Below are positions 5,453-20,018 of a stretch of DNA of 23,137 nt, piece by piece. The notes beneath the pieces are model-generated. The model was not told where the DNA came from, made no database searches, and was given only the letters and a program-made list of their open reading frames with translations. A program made the position numbers and the translations under genes. The stretch comes from a virus. Location of the stretch: IMG/VR virus record IMGVR_UViG_3300005509_000007, positions 1 through 23,137 of that record; one strand, given 5' to 3'. The first letter of the stretch is position 1. Every line of letters begins with the position of its first letter.

Positions 5453-6580
5453 ATGAGTAGATTTTCTTTCGGAATATTTGGACAAAATAGCGACGAACTT
5501 ATTTCCGGTTTAGATGTTAAAATCCGCGACGTTAACGATACGGTAATAGCGGACAAAAGCGGAAATTTAGCCCATACGATAGAGGACAACGGGGACGGAA
5601 CCTATTACGTGGATAGCTTACCCCAAAGTCTTATAAATGTTTATGTGGGAGATTCGGCCCAAGATGAATTACAGAATATATTCTTTCCTACAGAAGCTAC
5701 GGCGGACCATATAAGCGACGATACCAAACACCGGGCTATAAACGACGTGGGTACGGGGACTACTGAAACTTTTTCTAACAGTAAGGTAAATACTCTGTTA
5801 GCCAGTAAATCCAATACTTCCCACAACCACGCAACCGAATACGCTACCCTCGGACACGACCACGACACCGACTACGCGGATATAAGCCACTCTGGAGACA
5901 ATAGTCTTCACAGAACGATAAATGACTCTGGCACGGGTGAGTACAATTTGTTCAGTGCAAGTAAAATCAATACCGAGCTTGCTCTGAAAGCTGATGACGC
6001 TGACCTTACAAGCCACTCTGGAGACAATAGTGTTCACCGAGAAATAGACGACTCGGGCGTTAATAATACGGATTTATTTAGTGCCAGTAAAATCAATACC
6101 GAACTTGCTCTAAAAGCTGATGACGCCGACCTTACAAGCCACTCTGGAGACGCTGATAAGCACCGAGAAATAAACGATTTGGGGTCGGGGGTTACCGATG
6201 TGTGGAGTGGTAATCATATAATAACTTACATCAACAACAAGGCTACATTTAGTTCAGATGATTTTGCGGGAGGCTTAGGAAGTGACGTAACCATTAAGCA
6301 AGATTTTAACGACCAAACTATTCTGGACAATAGCAAACGGCTGAACCAAAATCTCGAATCATTACAAACCGCAATAGGGGGCGGTCCCATACCTTATGAA
6401 GAACGTGCGAACCATTTGACGGCCAACTTAGCTAATAAGGGGAAATTATATTACTATAATTCCGGCCCGAGTATGCCGTCTGGTACATACGGTTTGTATT
6501 TCATAGCCCAAAGCGGAACGAACTCGTACCACCGCCTTACTGTTGTAGAGGATTCTTGGGGTGGTGGTGGAGGAAACTAA
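5453..6580 (+). CDS. Tail fibre / receptor-binding-type protein with 42-residue repeats
   Basis: This 375-residue protein is preceded by AAGGAAC. Residues 1-85 look like a beta-rich attachment domain. After this come HRxIND-type repeats with a 42-residue period (LHRTINDSGTG, VHREIDDSGV, KHREINDLGSG) and a His-rich stretch (SHNHATEYA, GHDHDTDYA) like the HxH metal-binding turns in trimeric phage fibres. The C-terminus is Gly/Ser-rich and ends GGGGGN. It is probably a trimeric fibre or tail-tip adhesin that recognises the host surface. It is the last gene of the tail operon and is followed by a terminator-like hairpin. The repeat section uses CTG, CTC, GAG and TCA codons that are scarce in neighbouring genes, suggesting recombination from another phage. 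Confidence 0.75.
   Translation: MSRFSFGIFGQNSDELISGLDVKIRDVNDTVIADKSGNLAHTIEDNGDGTYYVDSLPQSLINVYVGDSAQDELQNIFFPTEATADHISDDTKHRAINDVGTGTTETFSNSKVNTLLASKSNTSHNHATEYATLGHDHDTDYADISHSGDNSLHRTINDSGTGEYNLFSASKINTELALKADDADLTSHSGDNSVHREIDDSGVNNTDLFSASKINTELALKADDADLTSHSGDADKHREINDLGSGVTDVWSGNHIITYINNKATFSSDDFAGGLGSDVTIKQDFNDQTILDNSKRLNQNLESLQTAIGGGPIPYEERANHLTANLANKGKLYYYNSGPSMPSGTYGLYFIAQSGTNSYHRLTVVEDSWGGGGGN
5906..6157 (+). repeat. Two tandem 126-bp units inside the tail fibre gene
   Basis: Two units (5906-6031 and 6032-6157) have an exact 126-bp period, so each codes for 42 residues. The last ~72 bases of each (from AGTGC.AGTAAAATCAATACC to CACTCTGGAGAC) differ at only about four positions, while the first parts have diverged. 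A partial earlier copy (SHSGDN) lies just upstream and a degenerate 60-residue relative starts near 5726. Confidence 0.9.
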
Positions 6581-8692: not shown

Positions 8693-8881
8693 ATGGGACT
8701 AAATAGTAATGTCCAAATAAAACGTAGTACATTAGACCGACTAAAGCGTTATCGGGCCGTAAGCGGTACAACCGCTACCCATATAGCCGACGCGTCTATA
8801 AACGAATATTTGGACCGTAAGGGCTTCGAAAAGGACCGGGCTATACCTTCGCTTAATGGGACGCCCAAGACAAAAACTTAA
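8693..8881 (+). CDS. Ribbon-helix-helix DNA-binding protein
   Basis: A 62-residue protein with ribosome binding site AAGGAAC. The pattern VQIKRSTLDRLKRYRAVSG followed by TTATHIADASINEYLDRKG is a typical Arc/CopG ribbon-helix-helix fold: one strand, then two helices, forming a dimer that binds DNA with the paired strands. It probably represses or tunes early-operon transcription, possibly its own, since a candidate promoter sits directly upstream. The last ~15 residues are a flexible basic tail. The target site is unknown; the dispersed CGAGGGATG elements or the CCACTA repeat are candidates. Confidence 0.8.
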   Translation: MGLNSNVQIKRSTLDRLKRYRAVSGTTATHIADASINEYLDRKGFEKDRAIPSLNGTPKTKT

Positions 8882-10602: not shown

Positions 10603-11589
10603 ATGGCCTTGCCGTGGTTTAGATTCTACGCGGAATTTGTACACGACCCTAAAGTATGTACGTTACCGGAAGTAGACCAAATACGTTTAGTTAAATTATT
10701 TTGTCTTCGTTGTTCTGAATCGTTGGACAAATTGGACGAAGCGGAAATAGCCTTCGCCCTACATATTCCAATAGAAGAACTACAGAAAACCAAGCGTAAT
10801 TTAGTCGCGAAAGGTTTTCTTACCGAAGATTGGATTTTACGGAACTGGTCTAAACGCCAACTAAAAAGCGATTCCAGTACGGAAAGGGTTAGACGCTATC
10901 GTGCCAAGGAAACGGCCCGGAAACAAGCGGAAACGGATTCGAAACGGGAAAGTAACGGCGTAGATATAGAAGTAGATACAGATAAAGAAAGAAATACTAA
11001 ACCAAATAACGGGGGGAAGACTACCCCCCGTTTAGGTAAGGTTATTATTTCCGAAATAATAGACCTTTACCATACGACTTTAAAAGACCTACCAACCGTA
11101 CGCCTTCCTTTAGGACAAATAAGTAGTAGGCATCTACGAAAAAGGGTAAAAAGCTTTAAAGATGGGAAAGAAATAATAGAACACTTTAAGGAAGTCTTTA
11201 ATATAGTAGCCGGGTCCGACTTCTTAACCGGTAAGACGACCGATTGGTCGGCTAATTTCCACTGGATTATAAGACCTACTAACCACGAAAAAATATTAAA
11301 CGGGGAATATACTACCCTAAAAGAATATAAGAAAAAGAAGAGGCGGAAACTATATTGTACGGAGGTCGGGGAAGACTATAAACCCCTACACCCGGTAGTA
11401 GAAGTAGACCCCGAAAATAAAGCTATGTTTATATATTGTAAAATTTGTAAAGCCCCACTAGTCGAAGGTTATATATTAGAATCGCATATAAATAATAAAA
11501 GAAAAAAAGCTTTACCACTAACCCCCCCTACCGGCGAAAGCGGACCGGTAAGCCTTGGGGACATTCTCAACAAACCAAAGGCAAGATAA
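10603..11589 (+). CDS. Replisome-organiser / DnaD- or O-like replication protein
   Basis: This 328-residue protein starts at ATG 10603 after TTAGGGTAG. The N-terminus (PWFRFYAEFVHDPKV, then a winged-helix-like region to FLTEDWILRNWSKRQLKSDSS) is characteristic of phage replication-initiation proteins with a helix-turn-helix. A basic linker (STERVRRYRAKETARKQ) follows. Residues ~205-240 (FLTGKTTDWSANFHWIIRPTNHEKILNGEY) match the conserved end of these proteins (F-x-G-x...W-x-A-x-F-x-W...N-x-x-KIL-x-G-x-Y). Unusually, ~85 more residues follow with one Cys near 251 and a CKIC pair near 280, possibly a small zinc knuckle. It probably binds the origin and recruits helicase; no helicase gene is visible in this window. 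Confidence 0.75.
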   Translation: MALPWFRFYAEFVHDPKVCTLPEVDQIRLVKLFCLRCSESLDKLDEAEIAFALHIPIEELQKTKRNLVAKGFLTEDWILRNWSKRQLKSDSSTERVRRYRAKETARKQAETDSKRESNGVDIEVDTDKERNTKPNNGGKTTPRLGKVIISEIIDLYHTTLKDLPTVRLPLGQISSRHLRKRVKSFKDGKEIIEHFKEVFNIVAGSDFLTGKTTDWSANFHWIIRPTNHEKILNGEYTTLKEYKKKKRRKLYCTEVGEDYKPLHPVVEVDPENKAMFIYCKICKAPLVEGYILESHINNKRKKALPLTPPTGESGPVSLGDILNKPKAR

Positions 11590-11840
11590 TGGCCGAAATA
11601 CATATACCGAACAGTAACATACAAAGCATAAGCTTGAGGGAATCGTTAATTATATACGAAGCCCTTAAGAATTATCGTATTTCCCTTAACCGCCTTTCGG
11701 ACCTAAACAAGTCGAACGAAGTAGGTACTTTAATAGCAAAAGTAAAAGGGAAAAAATGGATAATATTCCAGAAAGAAAACCCCGAACGAGGGATGGGAAA
11801 AGAAAACCCCCGGACGGGTGTAAATGTAAAAAGCCCGTAG
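11589..11840 (+). CDS. Hypothetical 83-residue protein overlapping the phosphoesterase
   Basis: The ATG overlaps the previous stop by one base (TAATGG), a strong coupling signal. The N-terminal ~60 residues form a soluble alpha-rich segment (SLRESLIIYEALKNYRISLNRLSDLNK) followed by a strand pair (TLIAKVKGKKWIIF). The last ~28 residues overlap the start of the phosphoesterase gene by 85 bases in another frame. Such a long overlap is unusual here; the stop may have drifted downstream, or the next gene may start later. No family recognised. Confidence 0.55.
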   Translation: MAEIHIPNSNIQSISLRESLIIYEALKNYRISLNRLSDLNKSNEVGTLIAKVKGKKWIIFQKENPERGMGKENPRTGVNVKSP

Positions 11841-12760
11841 TACACTTACGGGGCCGTAATGGTTCCGGTAAGATTCGGGTATCTTGCCGGAATTGTAACA
11901 AGTGGGGACTAATAGACGATATTTCCCGGAAGGTAAAAAACAAGCTTACCCGGGTAAACGTAAGAACCAACCCGATAAGGTCCGAATCTGGGATATTGCA
12001 ACGGGCCATAGTGTCGCCGGATAAACATTTCCCACTAGAAGACCACCCGGCTATGAATTGTTTAAAAAGGATAATAGAAATAGCTAACGCGGATACTTAT
12101 ATAGACCTTGGCGATGTAGTAGAAGGCGATTCGGTTTCCCAATATAAGACGAAGGTAAAAGGTAAAATACCATTAGACTATAAAATAGCCGAAATAGACG
12201 CGGAGGTAAAAGATATTAAAGCCCGTTGGGACGACATAGACGAAGCTTTAGACAAGTCTTCGATTACTACTAAATATTTAACAGTAGGAAACCACGACGA
12301 ACGCTTCGACCGGTTCGTAAAAAAATACGAAGTCTTAAAAGACCAATACGGCTTTATCCCATTATTTAAAGTAAAAGAACGCGGTTATAAACCTATACCT
12401 TACGGCGAAATGTTAAAAATAGGCCGTCTACACTTTTACCACGGCCACCACGCCGGGGGAATATTCCACGCCCGGACCCATTTATTAAGATTTGGGATAA
12501 ATGTAATATACGGCCACCACCACAGTATACAACATTACGAACTAGGCCATATAGACGGTGTTAAGTCGGCCACTTCGTTAGGTTGTCTTAAAGACCTATC
12601 CGGGGACGCTAACGAATGGCTTAAAAACCTTTCCCACGGTTGGGGCCACGCCGTCGCGTCCGTCGATTGGTACGACGACGGTAACTACGTTACTAATATC
12701 CACAGAATAATAGGCGGTAAGACCGTCTTTTATGGTGAATACATAGACGGGAATATTTAA
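11756..12760 (+). CDS. Calcineurin-like metallophosphoesterase with N-terminal zinc ribbon
   Basis: This 334-residue protein contains the metallophosphoesterase motifs in order: D-x-H (DKH, 89-91), GDVVEGD (119-125), GNHDER (178-183), HGHH (229-232) and GHHH (253-256). These form the di-metal site that hydrolyses phosphodiesters. Before it, CKC (22-24) and CRNC (44-47) suggest a zinc ribbon that may bind nucleic acid. Related phage enzymes are thought to act on nucleic acid ends or cyclic nucleotides, and the substrate here is unknown. The ATG at 11756 lies inside the previous gene and is followed by a Lys/Arg-rich tail. It overlaps the nuclease gene by one base (TAATG). Confidence 0.85.
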   Translation: MDNIPERKPRTRDGKRKPPDGCKCKKPVVHLRGRNGSGKIRVSCRNCNKWGLIDDISRKVKNKLTRVNVRTNPIRSESGILQRAIVSPDKHFPLEDHPAMNCLKRIIEIANADTYIDLGDVVEGDSVSQYKTKVKGKIPLDYKIAEIDAEVKDIKARWDDIDEALDKSSITTKYLTVGNHDERFDRFVKKYEVLKDQYGFIPLFKVKERGYKPIPYGEMLKIGRLHFYHGHHAGGIFHARTHLLRFGINVIYGHHHSIQHYELGHIDGVKSATSLGCLKDLSGDANEWLKNLSHGWGHAVASVDWYDDGNYVTNIHRIIGGKTVFYGEYIDGNI

Positions 12761-13323
12761 TGACTTATTCAATTACAGACGACGTAAATAAGGCCAAAGC
12801 TTGGGAATGTTTCTTTATGGAAGAAATGGGTAGGTTATTGGACCTTAAACTATTATGGAATCCGGACCGGTTTATTATAGATTGGTCCGTCGTAGATAAA
12901 AGCTTAAATATAATAACCCTTATTGAAGCGAAGGTACGAAAGAACCATAGCGTCAACAAGTGGGACGACTTTATGGTAGGTTTAAGGAAATACCAATGGG
13001 GAGTAAACTATTACCTAACTACTGGAATACCCTTCGTACTCGCTTTTAGGTTTAGCGACGCTATAGTAACTTATAAACATAATCCGGAAAAGAAGCTTAT
13101 GGTAAAATATACCGGTAGGTCCGTTAATAAACGATGGTCCCAAGATGTTACCCCTTGTGTCCACATCCTTAAAAGCGATTGTAAAATATATAACCTTCCT
13201 TATTCTATTCCGGTCAATATGGTAGAAGACCTTAATACGAGGGTATGGAAGGACATAAGCCAACCTATCGAACTTTACTTAAACAAGATATACGAAGGTA
13301 AAAGCTTTGTAAACTATGAGTAA
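12760..13323 (+). CDS. PD-(D/E)XK-type nuclease-like protein
   Basis: This 187-residue protein shows the core of a PD-(D/E)XK nuclease: a helix with E16, then FIID (D41) and, after a strand turn, LIEAKVRKN (E56, K58), followed by KWDDFMVGLRKYQWGVNYY, which fits the helix after the catalytic strand. Such proteins cut DNA or RNA. In phages they serve recombination, junction resolution or host DNA breakdown. It overlaps the phosphoesterase before it and the ParB-like gene after it, so the three genes are probably translated together. The family call rests on motif spacing; the specific family is not recognised. Confidence 0.65.
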   Translation: MTYSITDDVNKAKAWECFFMEEMGRLLDLKLLWNPDRFIIDWSVVDKSLNIITLIEAKVRKNHSVNKWDDFMVGLRKYQWGVNYYLTTGIPFVLAFRFSDAIVTYKHNPEKKLMVKYTGRSVNKRWSQDVTPCVHILKSDCKIYNLPYSIPVNMVEDLNTRVWKDISQPIELYLNKIYEGKSFVNYE

Positions 13324-13819
13324 AAAACATATTAAGAAACGATTAGGTAGTATACGCTTCTTAAGGTTAGACGACCCTCATTACGATTGGGAAGCGTTAG
13401 AAAAGTCTTTATACTATGAGGGTTACCAACCGGGTAAATACGGCTACATAGAAGTACATAACGAAACTTGCGTAAACGGTAACCACCGTATGGAAATACT
13501 AACAAGATGTAAAGAAAATTTAGACCGGTGTATATGGGTAGCAAAGGTTAATAATTGGTCATACTTTTCCGGAATAACTATTACTATAATCCTTTCCCCT
13601 TTATTTCTACCTTATTTCTTCTTGTTTAGTTTAGTGCGACGCCTACTTAAGGCTACCGGCCTATATAAACCAAAGGTAAGACATTGGACCGATAAGCGGG
13701 GGTGGCATAAAAACTATAGGATAAAAGAATGGAAGAAAGCCTACCAAAAAGAAAACGCGGACGAACGGGTAAAACTATGGAATAAACCATACAAGAAACA
13801 AGGGGGGAATAAATGCTAA
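13316..13819 (+). CDS. ParB-like domain protein with a membrane segment
   Basis: This 167-residue protein begins inside the previous gene (8-base overlap). Residues ~20-66 (DPHYDWEALEKSLYYEGYQP, then YGYIEVHNETCVNGNHRMEIL) resemble the ParB/sulfiredoxin-like fold, with NGNHR (54-58) at the place of the conserved G-x-x-R/GHHR nucleotide-binding motif. Residues ~84-107 (GITITIILSPLFLPYFFLFSLV) form a clear membrane helix. The C-terminal third is strongly basic and aromatic. A ParB-like domain tied to the membrane is unusual. It could act on DNA or nucleotides at the cell envelope, perhaps at the site of genome entry. The fold call is inference. Confidence 0.5.
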   Translation: MSKKHIKKRLGSIRFLRLDDPHYDWEALEKSLYYEGYQPGKYGYIEVHNETCVNGNHRMEILTRCKENLDRCIWVAKVNNWSYFSGITITIILSPLFLPYFFLFSLVRRLLKATGLYKPKVRHWTDKRGWHKNYRIKEWKKAYQKENADERVKLWNKPYKKQGGNKC

Positions 13820-13935
13820 TAGATGTTATATATTTCTTGTGGAATATGGCCGGAATAGTGTTTTTTGGTGGAATAGGGGCCTTTCTAATGTATTTAGTAG
13901 GCTTAACCTTGTACGACTTTATTAACCGGCATTAG
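13813..13935 (+). CDS. Small membrane protein (40 residues)
   Basis: The frame starts at an ATG just after AGGGGGGAATAA and overlaps the end of the ParB-like gene by seven bases. It encodes MLIDVIYFLWNM..., with a hydrophobic stretch over most of its length (VIYFLWNMAGIVFFGGIGAF and LMYLVGLTLYDF), ending FINRH. One or two membrane helices are likely. It could be a holin-like or membrane accessory protein partnering the ParB-like protein. No family can be assigned to such a short sequence. Confidence 0.55.
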   Translation: MLIDVIYFLWNMAGIVFFGGIGAFLMYLVGLTLYDFINRH

Positions 13936-13947
13936 GGGGGTTTTATA

Positions 13948-14148
13948 GTGATTAACATAAAAAGAAATTGGCAAGGTGTAGGGTTGGCACTCTACGGTAA
14001 GCCCCCCCTTTTTCCCTTATATTACAACGATATAAGGCGTATCCCTAGCGAGGGATGCGATTATTCAATTATGGAATGTAACTCATTTTGCGGTCCCTTA
14101 AAAAAGACTGACGGGGGGCCCAAGTGCATAACCCGGACCATACACTAA
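13948..14148 (+). CDS. Small Cys-containing hypothetical protein (GTG start)
   Basis: This 66-residue frame starts with GTG at 13948, eight bases after the GGGGGG run. It has four Cys (37, 44, 48 and 60: EGCDYSIMECNSFCGPLK, PKCITR), which could bind zinc. A hairpin CGTATCCCT-AGCG-AGGGATGCG lies inside the coding region and contains one of the dispersed CGAGGGATG elements. No family recognised. Coding is supported by the start spacing and the following gene's ribosome binding site just after its stop. Confidence 0.5.
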   Translation: MINIKRNWQGVGLALYGKPPLFPLYYNDIRRIPSEGCDYSIMECNSFCGPLKKTDGGPKCITRTIH

Positions 14149-14164
14149 CTAAAGGGAGAATCAA

Positions 14165-14488
14165 ATGGCGTTAGAAATAGAACAGAGTAAGGGGGTACTA
14201 TTCCCCAACGATTACAAGACAGAAGGCGACAACCAACCGGACTTTAGGGGTGAAGTAGAACTCCCCCCGGGGTATGGGTACACCGGACCAAAGGACGGCA
14301 TACCGGAAGGGATAAGCCCCACCCGGCTAAGGATAGTCGTATGGGATAACACAAGTAAGGCCGGTAAGCCTTATAGGTCCATAGAAGTAAATACACCCAA
14401 GCCCCCTAAACAATCACATCCCTCGTCTGAGGATTCAACCTATAAGCCTACAAGTACAACAACAAGTAAGACCGAACTACCCTTTTAA
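14165..14488 (+). CDS. Putative ssDNA-binding (SSB/DUF736-like) protein
   Basis: This 107-residue protein follows AAAGGGAG. Residues ~20-78 (PDFRGEVELPPGYGYTG ... RLRIVVWDNTSKAGKPYRSIEV) have the strand order of a small OB-type domain and resemble the DUF736 pattern (PD-x-x-G ... W-x-x-x-S-x-x-GKPY). After a Ser/Thr/Pro-rich linker the protein ends TELPF, like the C-terminal LPF/IPF tip that bacterial SSB proteins use to recruit partners. A role in protecting or organising single-stranded DNA with the annealing protein is inferred. The linker codes for HPSSED, produced by a dispersed DNA element also present in the gene at 14975. Confidence 0.5.
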   Translation: MALEIEQSKGVLFPNDYKTEGDNQPDFRGEVELPPGYGYTGPKDGIPEGISPTRLRIVVWDNTSKAGKPYRSIEVNTPKPPKQSHPSSEDSTYKPTSTTTSKTELPF

Positions 14489-14547
14489 GGGGCTAACCTC
14501 TTCCGGTATGCCGATTGTTTACTGTAGCCATAGGGTAAGTATATAAT

Positions 14548-14760
14548 ATGAACATAGAAAACCTTATAACGCTTAAGGCTAATGTAGAGCGAACCATAGA
14601 CGGGGCTATCCATACCATTAGTAGGGTAAGGGAATTAGAGAAGGAAGTGGCCCGCCTACAAGAAGCTAACCGCTTATTAGAAGATGAGCGGGACACTATG
14701 GCCCGGCAACTAAACGACGCCAAGAATAAGGCACGACTAGAAGCCGGGTTAATATTGTAG
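14548..14760 (+). CDS. Small coiled-coil protein
   Basis: This 70-residue protein starts after AGGGTAAG. Nearly the whole chain is helical with heptad spacing (LITLKANVERTIDGAIHTIS, VRELEKEVARLQEANRLLED, MARQLNDAKNKARLEAG), so it is probably a parallel coiled-coil dimer or trimer. It sits between the SSB-like gene and the small membrane protein. Such proteins can act as adaptors; no specific role can be given. Confidence 0.65.
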   Translation: MNIENLITLKANVERTIDGAIHTISRVRELEKEVARLQEANRLLEDERDTMARQLNDAKNKARLEAGLIL

Positions 14761-14777
14761 GGCCGACGCTCTGGCGA

Positions 14778-14825
14778 GGGATGTGGTTATGTTAGAACTC
14801 AAACGTGGGATGTGGTTATGTTAGA
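14778..14825 (+). repeat. 19-bp direct repeat pair duplicating a start region
   Basis: GGGATGTGGTTATGTTAGA occurs twice (14778-14796 and 14807-14825), 29 bp apart, without mismatch. Each copy contains an ATG eight bases after the GGGATGTGG stretch. The first ATG (14789) opens an 11-codon frame that stops at 14824, inside the second copy; the second (14818) opens the small membrane protein. Confidence 0.85.
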
Positions 14826-14988
14826 CGTGTTAAGCTTTCTGTTGGTCTTTATAGTGGGTATATATGCCGGGGCCTACCTTTCTTTTAAGGGTATGTCAAA
14901 GGCCATAGAGAAGCTACAGATAGTACACCGGAAGGAACTTAAAGAACTGTTTAATACACTAAAGGGAAACAACTATGGCGAAGGATAA
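14818..14988 (+). CDS. Small single-pass membrane protein (56 residues)
   Basis: The frame begins at ATG 14818 in the second copy of a 19-bp direct repeat. Residues ~4-22 (VLSFLLVFIVGIYAGAYLSF) form one membrane helix, followed by a charged amphipathic helix (MSKAIEKLQIVHRKELKELFNTL). This architecture fits a small holin, antiholin or envelope-modifying protein, though nothing proves it. The 11-codon frame just upstream might act as a translational leader. The C-terminus overlaps the next gene by 14 bases. Confidence 0.6.
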   Translation: MLDVLSFLLVFIVGIYAGAYLSFKGMSKAIEKLQIVHRKELKELFNTLKGNNYGEG

Positions 14989-15199
14989 GATAAGGATGAG
15001 GGATAAGCCACATCCCTCGTCAGAGCAACCGAAGATAAGGATAGGGGACAAGATACGGACCAGTGGCGGAACGGGCCTTACAGTAATAGCAACGACCGGG
15101 ACGGGGGCTTATTGTATGCACCTAACCCCACTACATAAACCCCATAAGGACGCGGTCTTTATACCTTACTCCGACCTAACACTACAGAAAGGAAAGTAG
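14975..15199 (+). CDS. Hypothetical small beta-barrel-like protein
   Basis: This 74-residue protein follows AAAGGGAAAC and overlaps the preceding membrane protein gene. The N-terminus is basic (MAKDKIRMRDKPHPSSEQ), and HPSSEQ is encoded by a dispersed DNA element. The rest (KIRIGDKIRTSGGTGLTVIATT ... DAVFIPYSDLTL) has the rhythm of a small SH3/KOW-type barrel, which often binds nucleic acid or protein. No family is assigned. The next gene begins two bases after its stop. Confidence 0.55.
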   Translation: MAKDKIRMRDKPHPSSEQPKIRIGDKIRTSGGTGLTVIATTGTGAYCMHLTPLHKPHKDAVFIPYSDLTLQKGK

Positions 15200-15200
15200 T

Positions 15201-15569
15201 ATGGCATATAAAGAAAGGGATATACAACGCCACATAATAAGCCTACTCAAGCTAATGCCGGAACTTGTCCCGGTTATATTCCGGGTAAATGCCGGGGCGG
15301 TCCAAACAAAGCAAGACCGCTATGTTAGGTTAGCACCTAAAGGGGTAAGCGATATTATAGGAATGTTAAGGGGTGGATTCTTATTGGCCATAGAAGTAAA
15401 GACCCCGGAAAGAAAGAATAGGGTAACCATAGAACAACAAAACTTTTTAGACATAGTACGCTTATACGGGGGGTTAAGCTTTGTTTGTTGGGACCCGGAA
15501 GACGCGGTTAAACAAATAAACGACTACACTATCGAACGCGAATTAGAACGCAACGAACGGGCCGAATGA
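15201..15569 (+). CDS. VRR-NUC domain nuclease
   Basis: This 122-residue protein has the full VRR-NUC pattern: an N-terminal helix with E5 (ERDIQRHIISLL), FRVNAGA (28-33), KGVSDIIG (D51), FLLAIEVKTP (E65, K67) and the following TIEQQNFLDIVRLYGG (Q79). Single-domain phage members act on branched DNA such as Holliday junctions, clearing them before packaging. The ribosome binding site AAAGGAAAG and the overlap with the next ATG (TGAATGA) support co-translation. The length fits the stand-alone phage form. Confidence 0.85.
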   Translation: MAYKERDIQRHIISLLKLMPELVPVIFRVNAGAVQTKQDRYVRLAPKGVSDIIGMLRGGFLLAIEVKTPERKNRVTIEQQNFLDIVRLYGGLSFVCWDPEDAVKQINDYTIERELERNERAE

Positions 15570-15779
15570 ATGAATGGACGTTATAAGGGACTAAAAATTA
15601 TAAACTTAAATGTTGTCCGGAATATAGAAATATGGGGGGAATGGCAAGGGCTAAGTAAGGGGGAGTGGACCTATAAACATAAAGTAGAATACTTGGCCCA
15701 GAAATATTTCTTAAGTGTTAAACGAGTGCAAAACTTAATAAGCGAAATGGCCGGTATGGTCGAAGGTCCCATTAAATAG
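15570..15779 (+). CDS. Small helix-turn-helix protein
   Basis: This 69-residue protein starts directly after the VRR-NUC stop. Residues ~35-60 (YKHKVEYLAQKYFLSVKRVQNLISEM) form a helix-turn-helix of the kind found in Mor-like activators and in small DNA-binding subunits. It lies just before the small terminase gene, so it might switch on the late operon, or it could be a terminase accessory factor. Its single-domain size and context do not let me choose. Confidence 0.55.
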   Translation: MNGRYKGLKIINLNVVRNIEIWGEWQGLSKGEWTYKHKVEYLAQKYFLSVKRVQNLISEMAGMVEGPIK

Positions 15780-15838
15780 GGGTATGTATTTGTTTTTATT
15801 AAGTGGTATACTGGTCCAAGCTAAAGGAAAATAAAGCT

Positions 15839-16246
15839 ATGACTATGGCAAGGACAAAGCCAAACAGTAAAGGCCCGGGAAGGCCGAAGATTAACATAGA
15901 TTGGGACGACTTGGATAAGTTACTGGCCCTACAATGTACACTAGAAGAGGTAGCTTTCTTCTTTGACGTTAGCCCGGATACAATACAACGACGGGTAAAA
16001 TCGGTTAAACGATGTACCTTTGGGGAATACTATAAACTTAAGTCGGCCGGTGGCCGGACTTCGATAAGGCGTAAACAGTTCGAAGAGGCTTTAGACGGTT
16101 CTATCCCTATGTTAATATGGTTAGGTAAACAGTATTTAGGACAAAAGGATAAGAAGGAAACCGAAATAACCGAACTTAAACCTATTAAAGTCTTGGACAT
16201 TATGACCGAGGAAGACTTGGTAGCGAACTTATCCATTTCGAACTAA
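15839..16246 (+). CDS. terS: Terminase small subunit
   Basis: I use the ATG at 15839 (MTMARTKPNSKG), which follows AAAGGAAA; an in-frame GTG at 15803 would add 12 residues but has no ribosome binding site. The N-terminus is basic (KGPGRPKINIDWDDLDKLL), then a helix-turn-helix (CTLEEVAFFFDVSPDTIQRRVKS) binds the packaging site. A helical oligomerisation region follows (RRKQFEEALDGSIPMLIWLGKQYLGQKDK). The pattern of HTH followed by SIPMLIWLGKQYLGQ is typical of phage TerS. It overlaps the likely start of terL by 16 bases. Confidence 0.85.
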   Translation: MTMARTKPNSKGPGRPKINIDWDDLDKLLALQCTLEEVAFFFDVSPDTIQRRVKSVKRCTFGEYYKLKSAGGRTSIRRKQFEEALDGSIPMLIWLGKQYLGQKDKKETEITELKPIKVLDIMTEEDLVANLSISN

Positions 16247-17472: not shown

Positions 17473-18921
17473 ATGGCGACTCTAACAGAATTAACGAAAG
17501 CAATTACTACGAATACTATAGGTTCGGACGACAAAGGCCAAAGGGCTATAACCCGGGACCTATTCTATACCCAAGATAACAAGGGGGTACAAGGTCTTTT
17601 AACCGACGACCTAAAGAAGTACGTAGATACGGCGGATATTTCACGAATGAAGCTTATTACCTTAGACTTTTTTATCCCAGCGTTTTTAGAAAAGCTTTGT
17701 AGCGTCTACGATGTAGCCCCGGTTTTTAAGTACGAAGAGGGGGTAGGCGATAAAGACATAGAATTATTTACCGCGTTAATTGAAGAAACCCGAATACATA
17801 GTATTTTCCAAGAAAGCTTCTTACGGTGTAGGCTACATAATACAATAATAGCAAACGTTAAATACGCTTCTAATTTAGACCGGGTTTTCATAGACAACTC
17901 TTACCACGCCGGTAATACAGAAGTACTAACCTATTCCGATGTACATACAGAGCCTAAAATTATATATTGGGAAGAGGTAAGGGGGGCTAATAGTATTTGG
18001 ATAGTATGGGACCGGGAAAAGGGTTTCCATTACTGGACCCCCAAGAAGCCGGAATACGACGCGAAAATAAACGACATAGTAGGGGCTAAACACCCTATAG
18101 GGGACAACCCCGACCTATTAGGCCCGGACTATTGGCCCTTCGTTGTTTATAGATACCGGGACCACTCTAACAAGTTTTGGGGTTATGGTATGGACGCTAT
18201 CGTAGAACTAATACGGTCTATAAATGTTTTATTAACAGTATGTAACGACGACACTATCCAAGAAACTATAAGGCTACTTATCTTAAACTTTAATCCTACC
18301 GGGACCGAAGGGGAACGGGGCCAACTAAAGACCGGTCTACGGCATCCTTTATTTATGGAATCCGCTATAGGCGACAGTAAACCGGAAGGGGAAATCCTTT
18401 CGGCCAACCTTTATAATAAAGATGTAGTAGAACTAATAGAAAAACTAACGGACTTCGTTAGTAAGCTACATAATGTAGACAACATTTTAAGGGCGGAATT
18501 ACAACAAAATTTAAGCGGGATAGCCTTAAGGCTTAAGAACGAACCGCAACTACGCCAATGGGCCAAGGATATAAACATATTAAGGCCAATGGACCGCGAC
18601 TTATTGCAAACATTGGTAGACGTTAATAACTACCACCGGGAACCGGGGCGACAAATTAGCGACGGCTTTTTAGAACGGGTAAGCGTAGACTACCAAGAAC
18701 CGCGAATAGTTACGGACGAAAAAGAAGACTACGAATTAGAACGGGCGAAATGGGAAGACGGGACAAGTAGCCCTATCCGGTATATACTTAAGAAAAACCC
18801 GGAATTTAACGAAGAGGAAGCGGGGGAATACATACGCTTAAATTTGGCGGTCTTTAACGGAATAATGGGAATAGGTGTCGGTATTCCGGTAGACGAAGAA
18901 CAAGAAGGGGACATAGGTTAA
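17473..18921 (+). CDS. Portal protein
   Basis: This 482-residue protein follows terL at the expected place, with AGGATAAG upstream. It shows the portal layout: a helical N-terminal wing (DLFYTQDNKGVQGLL ... KLITLDFFIPAFLEKL), a stem region with WPFVVYRYRDHSNKFWGYGMDAIVELIRSIN (~221-251), the long helical clip and crown region (NLSGIALRLKNEPQL, ~346-360) and a C-terminal acidic tail (EEEAGEYIRL, EEQEGDIG). The portal is the dodecameric ring at one vertex through which DNA enters and leaves. The size is normal for the siphovirus type. Confidence 0.9.
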   Translation: MATLTELTKAITTNTIGSDDKGQRAITRDLFYTQDNKGVQGLLTDDLKKYVDTADISRMKLITLDFFIPAFLEKLCSVYDVAPVFKYEEGVGDKDIELFTALIEETRIHSIFQESFLRCRLHNTIIANVKYASNLDRVFIDNSYHAGNTEVLTYSDVHTEPKIIYWEEVRGANSIWIVWDREKGFHYWTPKKPEYDAKINDIVGAKHPIGDNPDLLGPDYWPFVVYRYRDHSNKFWGYGMDAIVELIRSINVLLTVCNDDTIQETIRLLILNFNPTGTEGERGQLKTGLRHPLFMESAIGDSKPEGEILSANLYNKDVVELIEKLTDFVSKLHNVDNILRAELQQNLSGIALRLKNEPQLRQWAKDINILRPMDRDLLQTLVDVNNYHREPGRQISDGFLERVSVDYQEPRIVTDEKEDYELERAKWEDGTSSPIRYILKKNPEFNEEEAGEYIRLNLAVFNGIMGIGVGIPVDEEQEGDIG

Positions 18922-19783: not shown

Positions 19784-19808
19784 ACCTTTTAAGAAACTGG
19801 AAAGACCA

Positions 19809-20018
19809 ATGAATATTAACGCCCTAACCGAAAAAGAAGCGAAATTAGTAAGGCTTACCCAACCGAAAATAAAAGAAGCTATAGGCGGATTAATTAGGGC
19901 CGGATTTAAACGCGACGAAGAAAAGATAATAGTAGCTAAAAAGAAGCTAAGGAAAGTAATAAGGCCTTCCGTTATTTCCGGCCTTACTTTGGGTGTTAAG
20001 TGGCTAAAATCAAATTAA
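19809..20018 (+). CDS. Small basic hypothetical protein in the head module
   Basis: This 69-residue protein begins after TGGAAAGACC. It is strongly basic and helical (AKLVRLTQPKIKEAIGGLIR, EEKIIVAKKKLRKVIRPSVI). It overlaps the next gene by 19 bases. A small basic helical protein here could be a head decoration or assembly helper, but the sequence alone cannot decide. Confidence 0.5.
   Translation: MNINALTEKEAKLVRLTQPKIKEAIGGLIRAGFKRDEEKIIVAKKKLRKVIRPSVISGLTLGVKWLKSN

Follow-up and report, generated by a model that had tools for sequence, protein, structure and literature searches.

The four iterons of the phage lambda origin are imperfect inverted repeats of 18-19 bp with a GAGGGA half, and they share one orientation, occupy ~85 bp of gene O and adjoin an AT-rich tract. 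In Stx phages, additional iterons occur as an in-frame insert that gives O 13 extra residues (PMC7466680). The stoperators of cluster A mycobacteriophages are dispersed, near-identical sites of 13 bp, the sequence of which differs between related phages. They lie mostly in one orientation, number 10-50 in published search settings and are bound by the immunity repressor of these temperate phages (PMC6550527). The Rickettsia palindromic elements (RPE) are palindrome-associated repeats of 100-150 bp that lie in frame inside unrelated genes (PMC3767692).

The locus described here resembles each of these systems in part. Like the lambda iterons, its six 18-bp sites lie near an O-like initiator gene and share with them the GAGGGA half, ACGAGGGAT and, at several sites, an imperfect inverted repeat. 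However, they are spread over 3.2 kb, in both orientations and outside the initiator gene. Like stoperators, they are short, near-identical and dispersed, and their sequence differs between related phages. However, four are forward and two reverse while the main genes are all forward, and no immunity repressor was recognised. At least one defining feature of lambda iterons and of stoperators was tested and found absent, and membership in either class is not established. With the RPE the sites share an association with palindromes, a position in frame inside unrelated genes and presence/absence differences, of 27 and 30 bp in ORFs, that keep the reading frame. In contrast to the RPE, the units are only 18-30 bp long and reside in a phage; furthermore, they have in common a TTRT word on the 3′ side but no left boundary, and no transposase was found that could serve as their mobilising enzyme.

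Genome context and gene layout

The window, i.e. the whole stretch of DNA that was analysed, comprises positions 1-23,137 of the IMG/VR virus record IMGVR_UViG_3300005509_000007 (23,137 nucleotides). The ends of G001, which at 35,871 bp is the longest contig of this phage, overlap, and the phage genome is ~35 kb long. The same phage, at 99.9% identity, is also found in several other IMG/VR contigs and inside a metagenome-assembled genome (MAG) labelled Rhodospirillaceae NP992, which may not be its host. The label of this MAG and the existence of marine relatives, among them a Pelagibacter phage, make it probable that the phage is marine. No DNA relatives were found in the phage and plasmid collections; in scans of viral and genome contigs, its close relatives were one near-identical strain and L035 (IMGVR 3300022225_001072), a contig of 4,834 bp with the same genes as the window at 14.03-18.94 kb and 92-98% identity to it.

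The main genes in the ORF list of the window all lie on the forward strand, and those of the region in question are as follows.

10603-11589, forward strand: O-like / DnaD-like replication initiation protein (PHROG families)
11756-12760, forward strand: metallophosphoesterase (family match)
12760-13323, forward strand: PDDEXK nuclease (family match)
14165-14488, forward strand: 107-aa protein, SSB-like by eye, with a flexible tail that ends in TELPF

Small genes continue to 15.8 kb and are followed by a weak match to a terminase small subunit (15803-16246) and by the terminase. The 107-aa protein has no family match and no protein relative in the phage and plasmid collections, and its AlphaFold model was too poor for use; the ORF at 17473-18921 likewise has no protein relative in these collections. 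Promoter-like sites occur at chance level, and terminator-like sites only slightly above it. Elsewhere in the window, three 126-bp tandem units (5881-6184) lie in ORF 5453-6580, which probably encodes a tail or fibre protein (at L029:9874-11043 there is a gene for a collagen-like GXY protein), and the phage copy in NP992 lacks a 22-bp intergenic segment (19789-19810).

An 18-bp repeat in six copies

The window contains five copies of the nonamer CGAGGGATG, exactly where an earlier note on this DNA had placed them. That note had expected less than one copy by chance, and dinucleotide shuffles agree: they contained 0.09 copies on average and never five. The full repeat unit is 18 bp long, CYCNRRCGWGGGATGNGR, and has six copies, named S1-S6, of which the sixth to be recognised, S5, carries the variant CGTGGGATG (at 14804) in place of CGAGGGATG.

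11781-11798, forward strand: S1, CCCGAACGAGGGATGGGA, within the overlapping ORFs 11589-11840 and 11756-12760
14043-14060, forward strand: S2, CCCTAGCGAGGGATGCGA, right half of the palindrome 14038-14059, CGTATCCCT-AGCG-AGGGATGCG
14414-14431, reverse strand: S3, CTCAGACGAGGGATGTGA, in the 3′ tail of ORF 14165-14488 (the 107-aa protein), encoding HPSSE
14769-14786, forward strand: S4, CTCTGGCGAGGGATGTGG, intergenic, just upstream of ORF 14812-14988
14798-14815, forward strand: S5, CTCAAACGTGGGATGTGG, forms a 29-bp tandem pair with S4, of which it is the second unit
15008-15025, reverse strand: S6, CTCTGACGAGGGATGTGG, in the 5′ part of ORF 14975-15199, encoding HPSSE; right arm of the hairpin 14995-15021

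The longer likeness reported in the earlier note, 17 of 18 positions in inverted orientation between 14769-14786 and 15008-15025, was confirmed. Compared with the other copies, CCACATCCCTCGTCAGAG matches 17 of 18 positions at 14769-14786 (inverted), 16 at 14414-14431 and 15 at 14798-14815, the last of which had been missed. A matrix built from the six 18-mers scores its own sites at 23.7-27.1 bits and the next position in the window, the left arm of the S2 palindrome, at 11.7 bits. In G001, CNNNNNCGNGGGATG is found at the same six places only (reversed control, 0), and the motif is hence not equally dense elsewhere in the genome. The count of four nonamers within 1 kb, which the earlier note had stressed, is right but not rare, as ~40% of Markov simulations contain some 9-mer four times within 1 kb; therefore, the case rests on the 18-bp likeness.

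The sites span 11781-15025, or ~3.2 kb of the ~35-kb genome; they are dispersed rather than arrayed or phased and fall in both coding and intergenic DNA. Of the 18 columns, 11 show no variation, and departures from the consensus are clustered centrally (simulated p ~0.002 and 0.017), with half of them in the three central columns and the flanks fixed. The hairpins of which S2 and S6 are arms are strong. TT[AG]T follows S2-S6 directly on the 3′ side (at S6, one base further) and is present in L035 too, where the motif is absent. Rfam gave no match, and a known RNA family was rejected for the repeat. Three other loci (L006, L007 and L009) share a single 17-mer only, which was taken as chance.

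Sister-strain alleles without the sites

All six sites are absent from sister-strain alleles that are 92-98% identical over the same genes. This absence is what is new here. They comprise L035 and a second allele at one end of G001, together called strain B, although the two may not be one strain; the strain of the window is called A. The second G001 allele spans 11645-12361, differs by ~19 substitutions and lacks S1 through a 27-bp in-frame deletion. A contig of NP992 carries six of these substitutions and yet keeps S1; the alleles are therefore real and recombining.

In L035, S2 is mutated to CCTTAACGGTATGCTAT, with a compensated frame change, and AAAGAAGCCGATAGTAGCTACTA stands in place of S3. 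One 49-bp segment, absent from L035, holds both S4 and S5, and S6 lies within a segment that is net 30 bp longer than its L035 counterpart. Furthermore, L035 has a repeat of its own, the 21-bp palindromic AGAAGCnnnTAGTAGCTnCTA, with one copy where A has S3 and the other directly behind the gene that holds this position. The earlier note had observed that the sites force the peptide HPSSE on two proteins. This is correct, but conservation of the peptide does not extend to the sister strain, where one L035 protein has a KEADSS-like sequence and the other has no counterpart. Because both strain B proteins lack HPSSE, a constraint at the peptide level was rejected and the repeat is taken to be a feature of the DNA.

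Divergence between A and B is 4-8% in 14030-15570 and 1.8% in 15.57-18.94 kb. The phage contigs of the NP992 MAG end at 14297 and resume at 15666, as if strain variation had broken the assembly. A 25-nt inverted repeat (88%) has its arms within the 107-aa gene (14296-14320) and just past its stop (14489-14513); L035 has no match to the latter arm and a different hairpin at that place.

Possible origin and function of the sites

The repeats are a real, sharply defined and strain-specific set of DNA sites. The reading that best explains them, which we hold tentatively and at somewhat less than even confidence, is that the six are recognition sites for a sequence-specific DNA-binding protein encoded by the phage, dispersed at its replication and early gene block. 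Protein-binding sites are favoured because the flanks are fixed and the centre is variable, because both orientations occur and because the sites are confined to the replication block or lie beside it. The variable centre between fixed flanks would be best read as a dyad-like operator rather than as evenly decaying copies. The protein would make its contacts at the GGGATG half, which is fixed (and at CYC), and the central NRR would act as a spacer. The likeliest binder may be the O-like initiator, in which case an origin would lie within its gene or close to it, with the sites around this origin as accessory iterons; a small regulator, RHH-like (8693-8881) or HTH-like (15570-15779), is about as likely. 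Protein binding, the identity of the binder and any role in replication or transcription are what we infer from these features of the DNA. The earlier note had compared the sites with regulatory stoperators or replication iterons. Its view of them as cis elements at the DNA level in both orientations stands, but iterons and stoperators are analogies only, as the sites are dispersed and neither a repressor nor an integrase was recognised.

What speaks for the initiator as the binder is that the arms of a palindrome in its gene (11008-11032) match RACGNGGG of the sites, that its relatives carry in-gene repeats and palindromes and that ACGAGGGAT is common to the sites and the lambda iterons. Each of these points is post hoc and of modest weight. 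The last of them is equalled by 14 of 2000 column-shuffled motifs, and the likeness to the lambda O iterons and to the palindrome is modest and proves no membership. That the sites show neither the array nor the phasing of classical iterons counts against the initiator-iteron reading. Because alleles more than 92% identical exist without any of the six sites, the sites are not essential, unless the binder has changed too. If they bind the initiator or a regulator, two strains that otherwise hardly differ would have opposite states at six dispersed sites, which would make them a natural experiment on how the cis-element sets of phages change specificity.

A different explanation, which is possible although we do not prefer it, is that insertion or local copying gave rise to the repeats, through a tiny palindrome-associated element or through template switching and slippage between short repeats, and that no protein needs to bind them. 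Near-identical pieces would thereby have entered permissive places of one strain, such as intergenic DNA and flexible protein tails. All six sites lie in stretches where A and B do not match, and such stretches make up ~5% of the compared DNA; in three of them A exceeds B in length, by 27, 49 and 30 bp. S1 (two copies of AAAGAAAACCCC 27 bp apart), S5 (GGTTATGTTAGA, twice) and S6 (AAGATAAGGAT..., 86%) are each bordered by direct repeats. TT[AG]T 3′ of S2-S6 is retained in the motif-free strain B, which suggests that the change stopped at a common boundary, and the inserts within genes keep the frame. On the other hand, S2 and S3 are replacements rather than clean inserts, the sites have no shared left boundary and no candidate transposase, and the variation is concentrated in the site centre. 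With one other allele per place, A may be ancestral instead. It is unlikely that a palindrome-associated repeat of ~18-30 bp is actively spreading in the phage genome, beside TTRT words and in frame within unrelated genes, such that co-occurring strains have all or none of its copies. If the sites did spread as repeats, they would represent a mobile or copying element of unusually small size.

Returning to sites that bind a protein, we consider it rather unlikely that they are lambda-type replication iterons that form the phage origin and are bound by the O-like protein. The nearby initiator gene, the common ACGAGGGAT and the imperfect inverted repeats at several sites all agree with such an origin. 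However, the sites are spread over 3.2 kb outside that gene in mixed orientation, none of the lowest-GC 60-bp windows adjoins a site, and strain B has none of them. Moreover, BLASTP gave no likeness between the initiator and lambda O, no switch was seen in GC skew, and the initiator gene itself, like those of its relatives, holds better origin candidates.

It is very unlikely, too, that an immunity repressor uses the sites as stoperators or operators and that strain B is heteroimmune or virulent. Dispersed, near-identical short sites within early genes would fit such a system, as would the different two-copy repeat AGAAGCnnnTAGTAGCTnCTA of strain B at and near the S3 position. However, no repressor or integrase was recognised in the window ORFs or in the rest of the ~35-kb genome (ORF lists and family scans, with many ORFs unannotated), and the number, length and prevailing orientation of cluster A stoperators (PMC6550527) all differ from those of the sites. 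That the phage exploits a Chi-, KOPS- or uptake-like motif recognised by its host is barely credible and was rejected: the repeat is partly non-coding and occurs in a phage, but CNNNNNCGNGGGATG is not enriched in the 3.3-Mb MAG, which may not be the host (16 copies, 2 of them in a phage contig, vs 11 of the reversed control).

Candidate origin elements in the initiator gene

The initiator gene lies 0.2-4.4 kb from the sites and contains none of them. Its product matches PHROG replication-initiation families (best 3.9e-24; O-like phrog_345, 1e-11) and is 37% identical to O proteins of Pseudomonas phages. The structural model has an N-terminal helical domain that contains two short strands (pLDDT 70-89), and a fold search of it against the PDB gave nothing significant. 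Two elements of the gene stand out.

11008-11032, no strand assigned: perfect palindrome AACGGGGGG-AAGACTA-CCCCCCGTT with 9-bp arms, both matching RACGNGGG of the sites
11080-11097 and 11267-11284: two copies of an 18-nt repeat (16/18) that lie 187 bp apart and are read in two frames

Seven of the eight window matches to RACGNGGGR lie within 11.0-15.1 kb, a pattern that was defined after the palindrome had been seen and the total count of which is not above that in shuffles. The palindrome and the 18-nt repeat are candidate origin elements.

Relatives of the initiator likewise carry palindromes or repeats within their genes. TGTAACGTTWCA occurs twice, ~200 bp apart and in different frames, in the O-like genes of Pseudomonas phages (L026:6123-6134 and 6319-6330, the same in L027 and L028) and of an unrelated IMG/VR contig (L044:966-977 and 1174-1185). 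These pairs are candidate in-gene iterons of this initiator family. They resemble the six sites in that they go with the same initiator family and are repeated words within coding sequence, but they have another sequence, which is absent from the window phage, and lie inside gene O.
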